From: an uncultured bacterium
GTDB taxonomy: Bacteria > Cyanobacteriota > Vampirovibrionia > Gastranaerophilales > Gastranaerophilaceae
DNA: 63,912 bases
Direction: 5' to 3'
NCBI GenBank assembly: GCA_947073645.1
Contig: CAMTMK010000012.1
Coordinates: 1 to 63,912, forward strand
The stretch's first letter is position 1. Each line of letters opens with the position of its first letter. A program made the position numbers and the translations under genes. The notes beneath the pieces were generated by a model. It worked only from the letters and a program-made list of their open reading frames with translations. It ran no database searches and was not told the origin of the DNA. Shown in pieces: positions 6,099-27,372 of this stretch.

Positions 6099-6110
6099 AG
6101 CCTCTTTTTT
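6084..6110. terminator. Bidirectional rho-independent terminator
   Basis: AAAAAAGAGGC / GCCTCTTTTTT with a GTAAA loop lies between convergent genes and serves both. Confidence 0.85.
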
Positions 6111-6899
6111 ATCTGATAAAATCCTTCCAATAAGATTTTGTATTATCTTGCGGGTGTTTATCTATTGAAGCCCAAAATGCACATCCGAAACCGTTCATGT
6201 TGGAATTGTCTGCTTTTGAACATACGGTTAAACTTAACTGATTTCCATTTATGTTATTAGCGGTATTATTCGGATTTCCTATTGGTATTATTCTTCCGTC
6301 AAGTGTTGGACGGAATGAAAAGATATCTATTCCGAGTTGATTTGGTTTTTTTGACGTCCCGTTTATGTCAACACTGATTACAGGACATTTTCCCGGTGGT
6401 GAGCCGTATTCAAAAAAATAGGTCCGGTTCATAAAATCGTAATTATAACCGTCGTCAAACATGGCTAAATTTGCAGAATTGCCTGTTAGTGTTTTGACGT
6501 TTGTGGCAACTTTTTCCCAGCCGATATTTTTATTTTGTGTAACAAAATATTCTCCGAATTTTTCTGCAAATTCTTTTGAGGCATTCATAACAGTCATTCC
6601 GCTTTCTACAAGCATCCAATCGTATTCGCACATATTTATTCCATAATCATAAATGAACTTTTGATTAATTTGCGAAAGTTCATTGTATGTTTTTTTGAAT
6701 TGAGCCTGTAATGTTTGACTTCTATGATTTGCAATCAGGGTTGGAATGGTTAATGCAGCAACGACTCCTATAATCCCTAATGTAATTAAAACCTCAGCAA
6801 GTGTGAATGCTCCGTTAAAATTTTTATAAAACCAAATGCAGCGAGTCAAGCGGCACGTTTGGGGGGGGGGCAACTCTGAGTTTTGTTATGATTAAGCAT
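6109..6899 (-). CDS. Prepilin-like protein with a homopolymer in its leader (frame OFF as read)
   Basis: The body is a type IV pilin/pseudopilin-like protein: GAFTLAEVLITLGIIGVVAALTIPTL, then a roughly 200-residue globular part with several cysteines. A well-spaced AAGGAG precedes the ATG at 6899. That frame runs MLNHNKTQSC into ten C residues, then leaves the pilin frame and stops at 6846-6848. With 11 or 8 C the same ATG would run into the pilin. The only in-frame alternative start is a TTG at 6873 with no ribosome site. The leader before FTLAE would be about 30 residues, far longer than usual. A TTGACA-17-AATAAT promoter lies upstream near 6948. Confidence 0.8.
6861..6870. repeat. G10 homopolymer (C10 in the prepilin mRNA)
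   Basis: Ten G on the + strand, followed by CAACTCTGAG. The tract lies nine codons inside the prepilin ATG and sets its reading frame. Confidence 0.9.
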
Positions 6900-6952
6900 A
6901 AAAATCTCCTTTATTTTTCCCCATTATTTATTATTTTTCAGTTTTTGTCAAG

Positions 6953-7606
6953 TTAAACAAGTCCTTCTTTTAAAGCTTTAACAGCAGCCTGTGTTCTATC
7001 ATCTACTACAAGTTTTTGGATGATATTACATACATGGGCTTTTGCAGTATGTTCAGAAATTGTTAATTCTTGAGCTATCTCATTATTTGAAAGCCCGTCT
7101 ACAACAAGTTTTAAAACTTCGTATTCTCTTTGTGTAAGGTTTGCATGCTGTTCTTTAAACATTGCTCTTGACATTTGGCGCGGCGGGATTACACCGCAGT
7201 TTTTCTCACGCAAAACGGGAACTACCTGCGGGTCAAGCCACATTGCGCCTTCGTGAACTGTTTTTATAACCATTTGTAATATATCAGTTCCGATGTCTTT
7301 CATTGCATAGGCGCAAGCGCCGGCATGAAGTGCATCAAGGACTTCTTGTTCGCTTAAATGTGAAGTTAAGATTATAACTTTTGCGCTGTTGTCTGTTTCA
7401 AGTATTCTTTTAGTTGCTTCTATTCCTGAAATATCGGGAAGTCCTATATCCATTAATATAATATCAGGTTTTTCAGTGCGGTATTTTTCAACCGCTTCTT
7501 TTCCGCTTTGAGCTTCGGATGTTATTTTTAAATCACCTTCAAAAAGTGACATTAAACCTACACGTATAAGTTTTTGGTCTTCAACGAGTAATATATTTAT
7601 AGTCAT
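6953..7606 (-). CDS. NarL/FixJ-type response regulator
   Basis: A 217-residue two-domain regulator. The receiver domain has the acidic pair E9-D10, phospho-acceptor D53 in LMDIGLPD and a conserved Lys in the AMKD turn. The LuxR-type HTH begins near residue 153 (LTQREYEVLKLVVDGLSNNEIA). AAGGAG lies correctly before the ATG. No histidine kinase is adjacent, so it is an orphan in this window. It is immediately upstream of the prepilin gene on the same strand, but an intervening promoter makes a shared operon uncertain. Confidence 0.92.
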   Translation of the reverse strand: MTINILLVEDQKLIRVGLMSLFEGDLKITSEAQSGKEAVEKYRTEKPDIILMDIGLPDISGIEATKRILETDNSAKVIILTSHLSEQEVLDALHAGACAYAMKDIGTDILQMVIKTVHEGAMWLDPQVVPVLREKNCGVIPPRQMSRAMFKEQHANLTQREYEVLKLVVDGLSNNEIAQELTISEHTAKAHVCNIIQKLVVDDRTQAAVKALKEGLV

Positions 7607-23707: not shown

Positions 23708-23741
23708 AAACGGGAGCAAACGAAAGTGAGCGACTGATAAA
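23708..23741 (+). repeat. Short dispersed repeat after a stop codon
   Basis: AAACGGGAGC followed by GAGCGACTGATAAA. The same sequence in a shorter form occurs at 25081-25104 on the other strand, there starting in the stop codon. Confidence 0.5.
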
Positions 23742-23784
23742 GGCATAAAAAGTCTGACCAATATTGGCAGAGATGGTAAAAAAG

Positions 23785-23808
23785 AAGAGGCGAAAGCCTC
23801 TTTTTTTT
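23785..23808. terminator. Bidirectional terminator
   Basis: AAGAGGC-GAAA-GCCTCTT then T8, between the YtxH gene and the convergent prepilin. Confidence 0.9.
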
Positions 23809-24658
23809 ACCAGGGATAATCCGGCGCAATCTGCCAGCCGTCTTTCATTATTAAGGTTGCACATGCAGATTTCAAGCCGATTGCAGCACAACCTTTACCG
23901 TCAGATTCTTTACTGCACATTTTAAGTAAGTCTTCTCTGGAATACCAGTCATAAGGTGCAACAAATGGTCTGTTTTTGCCTCCTAGCTGGAATTGTGCCA
24001 TATATCCTATTTCTAAAACAAAGTCGAAAGTGTCTTTACCTAAAATGTTTGGACCGTGTTCAGGCCCGTTAACATCTATGTATATAGCTGCAGAGTACAT
24101 ATGCATACCGCATGAAAATGGTAATATATGTATAAATGCTCCATTTTTTAAATAAAATGAATATCCCCAATCGTGATCATACATATTAAGACCTTTTAAG
24201 TTTTTATATACCGCAGCACATTTGTAACTCTTGCATATTGCACCATGTTTTGCTTTATCTGTTTGTAAAAACGGTTTAAAATACAAGGAGTACAAAATTG
24301 TAGAAGATTCGTTATTATTTTCGTTTCCAACCCAAGAGGTTGTATCATAGCCATATTCTTCTTTAGCGCTTTCCATAGCTTGCATTATTATAGAATATGT
24401 GCTTTTTAATCTTTCAATTGTAACTTTTTGCTGATATTTTTGAATTATTGTCGGTATTGTTAAACTTGCAATAACACCTATAATTCCTAAAGTAATTAAA
24501 ACCTCAGCTAAAGTAAAACCACCTATAAAAATTTTCCAATGCCCAATGTGGCGGGTCAAGCTTAACTTCGACCAAAGTTTTAAAAATCTTAACCAATATT
24601 GTTCGGCATGGCTACGTGCGCAGCACTTGGGGGGGGGGGCGATTCTGAGCTTTTTCAT
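23807..24658 (-). CDS. Prepilin-like protein with a homopolymer in its leader (frame ON)
   Basis: 283 residues. GGAGG precedes ATG 24658, which reads MKKLRIAPPPK through a C11 tract and on without break to GGFTLAEVLITLGIIGVIA at about residue 46. The leader is therefore about 47 residues, against 4 for the prepilin at 37092. The globular part has several Cys and a C-terminal CAAIG segment. It is the third gene of the run rluD-like, LapA-like, prepilin. Losing or gaining one C would abolish the product. Confidence 0.85.
   Translation of the reverse strand: MKKLRIAPPPKCCARSHAEQYWLRFLKLWSKLSLTRHIGHWKIFIGGFTLAEVLITLGIIGVIASLTIPTIIQKYQQKVTIERLKSTYSIIMQAMESAKEEYGYDTTSWVGNENNNESSTILYSLYFKPFLQTDKAKHGAICKSYKCAAVYKNLKGLNMYDHDWGYSFYLKNGAFIHILPFSCGMHMYSAAIYIDVNGPEHGPNILGKDTFDFVLEIGYMAQFQLGGKNRPFVAPYDWYSREDLLKMCSKESDGKGCAAIGLKSACATLIMKDGWQIAPDYPW
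24629..24639. repeat. G11 homopolymer (C11 in the prepilin mRNA)
   Basis: Eleven G on the + strand followed by CGATTCTGAG, close to CAACTCTGAG after the tract at 6861. Confidence 0.9.
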
Positions 24659-24674
24659 AATAACAATTCCTCCA

Positions 24675-25037
24675 TTATCTGTTTTTTAAAGCATCATCGA
24701 GTGCTTTTTCAAGTACTGTAATTTTATTTTCCAAAACTTTTATTTTTGCTTCGCCGTTAGAATTTGAAATTGCACCTTTTTCAAGTTCGCGTTTATATGC
24801 GTTATATTTTTCTTTTAATGAGGAATATAGAGGAGCAAAGAAAAATATTACAGAGAAGATTCCGAGGAAGAATACTATCAGTGTATAAATTGCAAAATCA
24901 AAACCTATTGTGTGTACTGAAAGGTTTGTGAGTTCTGCAAATTTGGGGCTTAACAAATTTATTGTTACATTATTGTGATAATTCATCAATATCAAAAAGC
25001 CTGCGCATAGTGCTGATAATATAGAAAGTACTTGCAT
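24675..25037 (-). CDS. LapA/DUF1049-like membrane protein
   Basis: 120 residues with two helices (about 1-18, and 48-75 with FAIYTLIVFFLGIFSVIFFF) and a C-terminal coiled coil (KIKVLENKITVLEKALDDAL). This is the layout of LapA-domain proteins, but similarity is only structural. No strong start evidence beyond the ATG with AGAGG upstream. Confidence 0.6.
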   Translation of the reverse strand: MQVLSILSALCAGFLILMNYHNNVTINLLSPKFAELTNLSVHTIGFDFAIYTLIVFFLGIFSVIFFFAPLYSSLKEKYNAYKRELEKGAISNSNGEAKIKVLENKITVLEKALDDALKNR

Positions 25038-26005: not shown

Positions 26006-26043
26006 TTCCGTAGTGATTATAGCATAATATTTTGTTACAAAAA

Positions 26044-26080
26044 AGCAATTTTAAAATTATTTTTGTTTTAAATATAATAT
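26044..26080 (+). promoter_or_regulatory. AGCAA-class promoter
   Basis: AGCAA (26044-26048), a 17-base spacer, TTTTAAATATAATATAGGGG. TTTTGTTACAA lies just upstream. The TATAGGGGAAAT end resembles the promoter at 736-770. Confidence 0.5.
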
Positions 26081-26092
26081 AGGGGAAATATT

Positions 26093-27372
26093 ATGATTAA
26101 TGAGTTTGGAAATAATTACGCATATCAGGCTTGGAATTATTATGATAACTATTATAAAAATTAGTATAATAGTTATGCAACAAGTATTTTACCCTTTCGG
26201 GGGGGGGGCATTTAGAGCCTTTCTATACAGGTGATGCTTTTCAATATACTACAAAACCCGATACGGTTAGTGGTGTCACTGAGAAAAAAGAGAAAAAGAC
26301 TGAAAAGCCAAAAAGTGAAAAGATTGAAAAGTCTGAAAAAGGTTTGTCAACAACATCAAAAGTTTTAATAGGCTTAGGTGTTATTGCAGCCGGTGTATTG
26401 GCACTGAAATGTGGAAAAGCTCCTAAAGTTTCACAGACTAAAAAACTTGCAGAAAAAATTACGTTTAAACCTGCACAAACTCTTGAAGAAGCTGCACAAT
26501 TCGGTAAAAACAATCTTGGTATTCAAAACTACAGAGGCTTTGAGGCTGCAGATAAAGAAGTTGTGAATTTTGCTAATGAAGGATTTGTTACTCTGAGTAA
26601 TAAAGTGAGTGGAAATACCAATATGCCTAAGTATTTTGAATTTAGAAACTTTGAAGGTGGTTATGCTGCAACAACAACTGATGGTGGTATTGTTTTAAAT
26701 AAAAATTTCTTCCGAAATATAGATAGTGAACTTGCGGGGCGTTTAAGTGTCTTGGAAAAGCAAGGTGTTTTAATCAGAAACGCGGAAAATCAAATTGGAG
26801 TTTCAGGATTTATTGATGAGGCTTATGCTAAAGATATACTTAAACACATAGAAAGATATAATAAAGGTGAAATTACAACTTTAAAAGACAAAATGTATTT
26901 ATACAATTGGTTTGATGATGCTCTTCAGGTTGGAAGTGCTCCGTTTAATTCTCCTCTTAAATCAATAAAAGCAATATTAAAAAATAATGATGCTGTTGAA
27001 ATATTAAAGAGTAAAGGTATTTTAACAGATATTGCACAAATAGAAAAGCTCTCTACAAAAGAACAAGCTTCTCTGTTTATGAGAATGATTAAGGATGGAA
27101 ATCTTCCTATTTCTATTGGTGAAGGTGCAGGGAAAGGTGTTTCTCCGTTCCATGCAATTTATCATGAAATAGGACATCTGAATGATAATGTTGTTTCAGG
27201 CGGATGGGTAAGTCAGGCTGATGAGCAAATTGCAGGTTTGGTTTCCGGTTATGCAATGACTAAACCTAGAGAATTTATTGCAGAAACATATGCAAAACTA
27301 ATTTCAGGCAAAAAACTTCCTGATGAGGTACTAGAGCTGTATAAGAAATTAAATGGACCTGCAATTATTTAG
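26093..27372 (+). CDS. Zincin-like membrane protein, reading frame interrupted
   Basis: ATG 26093, behind AGGGG, encodes MINEFGNNYAYQAWNYYDNY and stops at TAG 26162. The same frame continues as YNSYATSILPFRGG into a G10 tract. The long frame resumes after the tract (HLEPFYTGDAFQ) and runs to 27372; eleven G would join the two, apart from the TAG. ATG 26175 would join with 9 or 12 G. The body has a helix (TTSKVLIGLGVIAAGVLAL) and a zincin-type site HEIGH (27163-27177), with EFIAE as possible third ligand. It may be phase-variable, decayed, or expressed from an internal TTG at 26344. Confidence 0.7.
26199..26208. repeat. G10 homopolymer in the zincin-like gene
   Basis: Ten G followed by CATTTAGAG, which resembles the flank of the two prepilin tracts although here the G strand is the coding strand. 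Confidence 0.9.

Follow-up and report, generated by a model that had tools for sequence, protein, structure and literature searches.

We analysed a stretch of 63,912 nucleotides from an uncultured bacterium of the family Gastranaerophilaceae (contig CAMTMK010000012.1, positions 1 to 63,912, assembly GCA_947073645.1; the whole stretch is called the window below). A prepilin gene on its minus strand carries a run of ten C (C10) soon after the start codon and is out of frame (OFF) by one base. Judging from its sequence context, this tract is probably one of about 65 hypermutable G/C tracts in a genus-wide contingency repertoire ('phasome') of these Gastranaerophilales gut bacteria.

In the focal gene, an AGGAG Shine-Dalgarno sequence at 6910-6906 precedes an ATG at 6899-6897 on the minus strand. 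The ATG frame reads ATG CTT AAT CAT AAC AAA ACT CAG AGT TGC CCC CCC CCC AAA CGT GCC GCT TGA; TGC leads into the run, and C10 falls within codons 10-13. The prepilin frame (GAFTLAEVLITLGIIGVVAALTIPTL...) is open from the tract to 6109 and lies one base off the ATG frame at C10, so that 11 or 8 C (n = 2 mod 3) joins the two. A sequence-only reading of this DNA had described an ATG at 6899 with a ribosome site, nine codons leading into C10 and a stop at 6846-6848, which is correct to the base. It had also placed the prepilin frame one base out, to be restored by 11 or 8 C, and the frames do read so. TTG 6873, which it had named as the start that would contradict a switch, is unlikely to serve as one: it has no ribosome site, the leaders do not conserve a start codon in the triplet ahead of the tract, and all 126 tract-bearing prepilins that we compared (from the source genome, G010 and G012, three species) have an ATG upstream. 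The focal protein contains the class III signal (G/A)-F-T-L-x-E followed by a hydrophobic helix (GAFTLAEVLITLGIIGVVAALTIP). It passes the NCBIfam prepilin model TIGR02532 (18.9 bits, cut-off 16.3) and falls 0.1 bit short of Pfam PF07963 (21.1 bits, cut-off 21.2). The parts of the gene are the following:

6897..6899, minus strand: ATG start with AGGAG at 6906-6910; a start class common to 126/126 tract prepilins
6871..6880, minus strand: 5' flank of the tract, CTCAGAGTTG, matching the shared motif CTnAGARTG
6861..6870, minus strand: C10 tract, focal gene OFF by one base; G10 on the plus strand, the G-rich leading strand (window GC skew positive)
6846..6848, minus strand: TGA closing the ATG frame at C10 after a 17-residue peptide (read from the sequence)
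6814..6860, minus strand: leader between tract and prepilin motif (TCRLTRCIWFYKNFN in the prepilin frame), variable and swapped between orthologues in the orthologue comparison
6109..6813, minus strand: prepilin body (GAFTLAEVLITLGIIG...), intact; TIGR02532 above cut-off, ratio of non-synonymous to synonymous substitution rates (dN/dS) 0.12 against the G010 orthologue

The C/G runs of the window have lengths of 1-5, then none of 6-9, then 10, 10 and 11. A first-order model predicts 0.003 runs of at least 10 where three are seen, which bears out the earlier claim that a run of ten C is very unlikely by chance and rules out a chance run. An isolated single switch is ruled out as well, since the source genome (1.71 Mb, 37 contigs, about 34% GC) has 67 runs of at least 8 C. 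All 67 were extracted and read in their gene context. Sixty-five lie within genes, 53 of them in prepilin leaders (22 as C and 31 as G on the coding strand) and 12 in other genes; the two remaining C8 runs look like chance. The 12 other genes include a hexapeptide acetyltransferase (PF00132 match) and, by our own reading of the sequences, glycosyltransferase-like and membrane-anchored proteins and a phage-tail-like gene. Within the genus, the motif GC9-11GA occurs in 2-122 copies in 29 of 33 genomes, four (G013, G024, G028, G029) having none. It is absent from 25 further genomes of the family, order and class, apart from a single hit in two of them. The modal tract length is 10 in every genome listed.

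We read the frame state in the 126 prepilins of the three species. In each, an ATG stands ahead of the tract, and in nearly all of them a ribosome site can be recognised; behind the tract the prepilin frame stays open, the leaders being up to 49 codons long. The tract is exactly 10 long in 91 of them and spans 8-13 in the rest. Twenty-two are in frame (ON) and 104 out of frame (about 83% OFF); the in-frame share is below one third at p = 5e-5, a value that overstates the strength of the leader statistics since shared leader ancestry cuts the effective sample size. The length needed to be in frame is 2 mod 3 for 101 genes, 1 mod 3 for 22 and 0 mod 3 for 3. Leaders with different 5' registers have compensating 3' registers, and therefore the state 'OFF by one base at 10' looks selected. 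Among the other genes, seven of 12 tracts are in frame at 10. Hardly any leaders (3/126) would be in frame at 9 or 12, although lengths 9 and 11 are similarly common.

The out-of-frame genes have conserved bodies. The focal gene and its G010 orthologue, both OFF at C10, have a dN/dS of 0.12; of the eleven further orthologue pairs, ten gave 0.08-0.19 and one gave 0.35, most pairs being OFF in both assemblies. These ratios indicate that the out-of-frame bodies are under purifying selection and are not decaying. Tract lengths differ between orthologues: C9/C10 at 98% body identity, G10/G11 at 97%, C11/C10 at 90% and G9/G10 at 80%. The sequence features that define a contingency locus are found here, namely a G/C repeat of at least 8 inside a reading frame, a one-unit change that joins or breaks the frame and a length that differs between species. 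Slipped-strand phase variation, which the sequence-only reading had proposed, is supported as an inference by the roughly 65 genomic tracts, many of them at surface-type genes, their ON and OFF members at lengths 8-13, the length differences between orthologues and the purifying selection.

The frame break could also stem from an assembly error in the tract length, or the gene could be a pseudogene. These are metagenome-assembled genomes, and homopolymers are error-prone. However, the identical C10 with its flank recurs in 29 species-level genomes, the bodies are open and under purifying selection, and had 11 been miscalled as 10 throughout, the other-gene tracts would not come out in frame at 10; we therefore consider artefact or decay extremely improbable.

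The main rival is programmed frameshifting, in which C10/G10 would be a fixed slippery site: a ribosomal -1 shift or transcriptional slippage would give a low, set rate of prepilin, and 'OFF' genes would not be off. It would account for the 101 of 126 leaders that need exactly the modal 10 plus one base, for the 5' registers compensated by 3' registers, for a mode of 10 in all listed genomes and for a dN/dS of about 0.12 in bodies that are OFF in both species. A programmed -1 frameshift gene would have a fixed slippery site and a constant offset between the frames; here the offset is constant in 101/126 and the tract length varies from 8 to 13. Lengths of 8, 9, 11, 12 and 13 occur with intact genes, which speaks against this reading. 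Efficient frameshifting would also harm the seven of 12 other genes whose tracts are in frame at 10, and the same -1 shift would be needed in poly-G leaders (GGG codons) and in poly-C leaders (CCC codons). Transcriptional slippage, moreover, is best known at A/T runs. On balance we regard this explanation as unlikely.

The leaders raise a different possibility, that tract and flanks mark the exchange of prepilin 5' ends or leaders, with OFF genes as donors, as in pilS/pilE of Neisseria. Bodies that are 90-98% identical differ between the tract and FTLAEV by insertions, deletions and an apparently inverted repeat element, and whole prepilin genes appear or vanish at fixed sites. Against this, each OFF gene comes with a ribosome site, a start and a complete body that is under selection; tracts are also found in unrelated genes of single-copy type, and no separate expression locus was found. 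Such silent-cassette recombination is highly unlikely to be what the tracts are for.

Between tract and FTLAEV lies a hot spot of repeat elements, and these differ between orthologues (L057 vs L249; L073 vs L126; L093 vs L234). One element is present in opposite orientations in L057 and L249 (GCAAGCGTAGCCGCTTGACCCGCCACATTGGG and its reverse complement), and the repeat elements all read in frame. They may be comparable to the palindromic repeats that occur inside genes in, for example, Rickettsia.

Several observations weigh against reading the tracts as slippage switches. The lengths at which genes come into frame are far from randomly distributed, contrary to what free slippage predicts: a gene that is ON at 9 or 12 ought to serve about as well as one that is ON at 11. 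Low-level expression by frameshifting would likewise be compatible with low dN/dS in mostly OFF genes. The length differences between species could stem from recombination, the leaders being visibly swapped, and the difference between L054 and L253 is a base substitution beside the tract and not slippage.

If the focal tract is a slippage switch, as we consider probable, a ribosome would start at ATG 6899, read the leader and stop after 17 residues at C10. Replication slippage by +1 C (or -2 C) would unite the ATG and prepilin frames and yield a prepilin whose leader, about 30 residues long, prepilin peptidase would trim before FTLAEV. Most prepilin leaders are built OFF at the modal 10 and ON at 11, leaving only about 10-20% of the roughly 40-50 tract prepilins readable per genome, and the tracts in glycosyltransferase, acetyltransferase and other genes are mostly ON at 10. 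Slippage within the population would be frequent and reversible, and the products would probably lie on the surface.

The tracts share a flank. Along the C strand, nCTnAGARTG stands before the tract and GA after it, whichever strand codes. A weight matrix built only from C-coding leaders picks out both the G-coding leaders (z of the mean 13) and the other genes (z 7). The reciprocal matrix, from G-coding leaders, gave z of 13 and 9 in turn. With these matrices the two C8 runs taken as chance are at background level. TG precedes and GA follows the tract in 27 and 27 of the 31 G-coding leaders, in 13 and 11 of the 22 C-coding leaders, and in 8 and 9 of the 12 other genes. Among the twelve sites in other genes, L065b and L075 fail to match, as does L051 with one of the matrices. 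The match cannot be put down to constraint on the proteins, whose reading frames lie on opposite strands.

The tracts are also locked to one strand. In five genomes, 173 of 180 neighbouring pairs within contigs (counted by hand from the tract lists) share polarity regardless of gene direction. The window itself has positive GC skew and G10 on the plus strand. GC skew flips sign or fades where polarity flips (G026:C2 210-305 kb, G019:C11 758-823 kb, G010:C1 260-298 kb), while the pattern at the flip in C4 of the source genome is ambiguous. Since polarity flips track skew flips, G10 lies on the leading strand and hence on the lagging-strand template. Composition alone was rejected as the cause: the leading-strand excess of G raised to the tenth power predicts a bias of about 92% (85% neighbour agreement), from which 173/180 departs at p ~1e-6. 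Composition may contribute to the strand lock; it is insufficient under this simple model.

Orthologues without a tract offer a view of how tracts arise. At four such sites, about 7-10 other bases stand where the source genome has the tract, and the length changes slightly or stays the same. The L061 gene has AAGCTTGGAATTG-C10-GAATAAC here and AAGCTTGGAATTAGACCTCCTGAA in G010. The L081 gene reads GTC-G10-CACAATT here and GTC-GGTAGTGGGG-CACATTT in G010, where GGTAGTGGGG could be a decayed G10. For L082 the pair is TTC-G10-CTTTCTGAG here and TTC-GGGTGTTGAA-CTTAGTGAA in G025, and for L079 it is AATGTC-G10-CT here and AATATGAAAAATACT in G031. The four sites showed no target-site duplication and no defined ends, which rules out an ordinary mobile insertion element (an insertion sequence, IS, or a miniature inverted-repeat transposable element, MITE). 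In the two closest no-tract orthologues the flank matches the motif despite the missing tract (p = 0.002 and 0.0007), and in distant ones (about 50% identity) it does not. A flank without a tract would fit the targeting of pre-existing sites and would equally fit tract loss. The strand lock and the flank may reflect the origin of the tracts or the upkeep of their mutability, for example by exposure of G10 on the lagging-strand template. It is possible, though we hold this only tentatively, that a dedicated replication-coupled process in the genus makes or copies C10 at sites matching CTnAGARTG...GA, always with G10 on the leading strand, and so makes new genes phase-variable.

A phage origin of the tract unit was considered and rejected, as a scan of viral contigs gave only four GC-rich contigs, judged to be at chance level. 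In these contigs (L362-L365), CTTAGAGTG or CTTAGAATG is followed by C11-C15; the context is the same, and their number was judged to fit chance. The phage-tail-like gene L051 (C5:61665-61676 of the source genome) has G12 here and 11 G in the viral contig L326 (IMGVR_UViG_3300006133_000379), at 88-89% identity, and comparison of these sequences suggests that phages or prophages of the group may phase-vary a tail protein. In L065 (C9:46.5-47.5 kb of the source genome), C10 links two domains in one frame, an N-terminal GT2-like glycosyltransferase and a further one that is glycosyltransferase-like; slippage would toggle between the fusion and a truncated enzyme.

The window holds two further tract genes and, next to the focal gene, a conserved neighbour:

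6953..7606, minus strand: response-regulator gene upstream of the focal gene, NarL/MadR-like; conserved, served as synteny anchor
23807..24658, minus strand: second prepilin (MKKLRIAPPPKCC...GGFTLAEVL), ON at C11; the entire gene is missing at the same site in G010 and G012
24629..24639, minus strand: C11 tract in the second prepilin, in frame by frame reading
26093..27372, plus strand: non-pilin membrane-anchored gene with G10 near its start; the insert 26007-27366 is absent from G010 and G012
26199..26208, minus strand: C10 tract (G10 on the coding plus strand) in the non-pilin gene, OFF by one base by frame reading

The non-pilin gene has a TAG at 26162-26164 in its ATG frame besides the out-of-frame G10; it may be decaying or start elsewhere. 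The focal prepilin, which follows the response regulator, has no counterpart in G012, and its G010 orthologue stands at the same place with a different leader. All three tract genes (6100-6953, 23711-24676, 26006-27367) are present or absent as whole genes against G010 and/or G012, and synteny closes tightly around them; no mobilising gene was identified at these three intervals. This comparison indicates that prepilins are gained and lost as single genes.

The tracts invite comparison with known systems. The poly-G/C phasome of Campylobacter likewise consists of many G/C tracts of 8-12 in the frames of surface-modification genes, with single-base ON/OFF switching and with non-variable homologues whose tract is interrupted or missing (PMC6321876); a large draft set gave a median of 20 poly-G tracts per C. 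jejuni genome (PMC6321876). Here, in contrast, the main target is prepilins. In Neisseria, a homopolymer in the frame of a pilus gene switches it, and pilus genes recombine too (pilC/pilE/pilS), but pilC is present in one or two copies and encodes a pilus-retraction/adhesion protein (PMC5953494), whereas here dozens of prepilins each have a leader tract with a fixed offset class and a shared flank. Homopolymers near gene starts are known to inactivate genes by frameshift, giving a control of expression through 5'-end tracts like that proposed here; in a survey of 99 genomes, poly-A/T runs near gene starts reached a length of 8, and poly-C/G runs showed no bias towards the 5' end (PMC2831843). 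A literature search, which was not exhaustive, turned up no paper that describes phase variation, or C10 tracts, in Melainabacteria/Gastranaerophilales. The system described here would operate in the same manner as these known ones; the dozens of prepilin targets, the fixed length, the shared flank, the strand lock and the offset class set it apart from them.

The interest lies in the strand lock, the flank and the near absence of an ON-at-9 class. Flank and strand lock turn the birth and upkeep of homopolymer switches, usually taken as chance, into a testable question, and the gene content of the tract-free genomes, compared with that of tract-rich species, could reveal the machinery required. 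For annotation, dozens of intact prepilins may be given false start codons or be called pseudogenes by automated pipelines. If the proposed switch is true, an uncultured gut lineage next to the cyanobacteria would have one of the larger known phase-variable gene sets, centred on pilins, and phase variation of this kind would not be mainly a device of pathogens.
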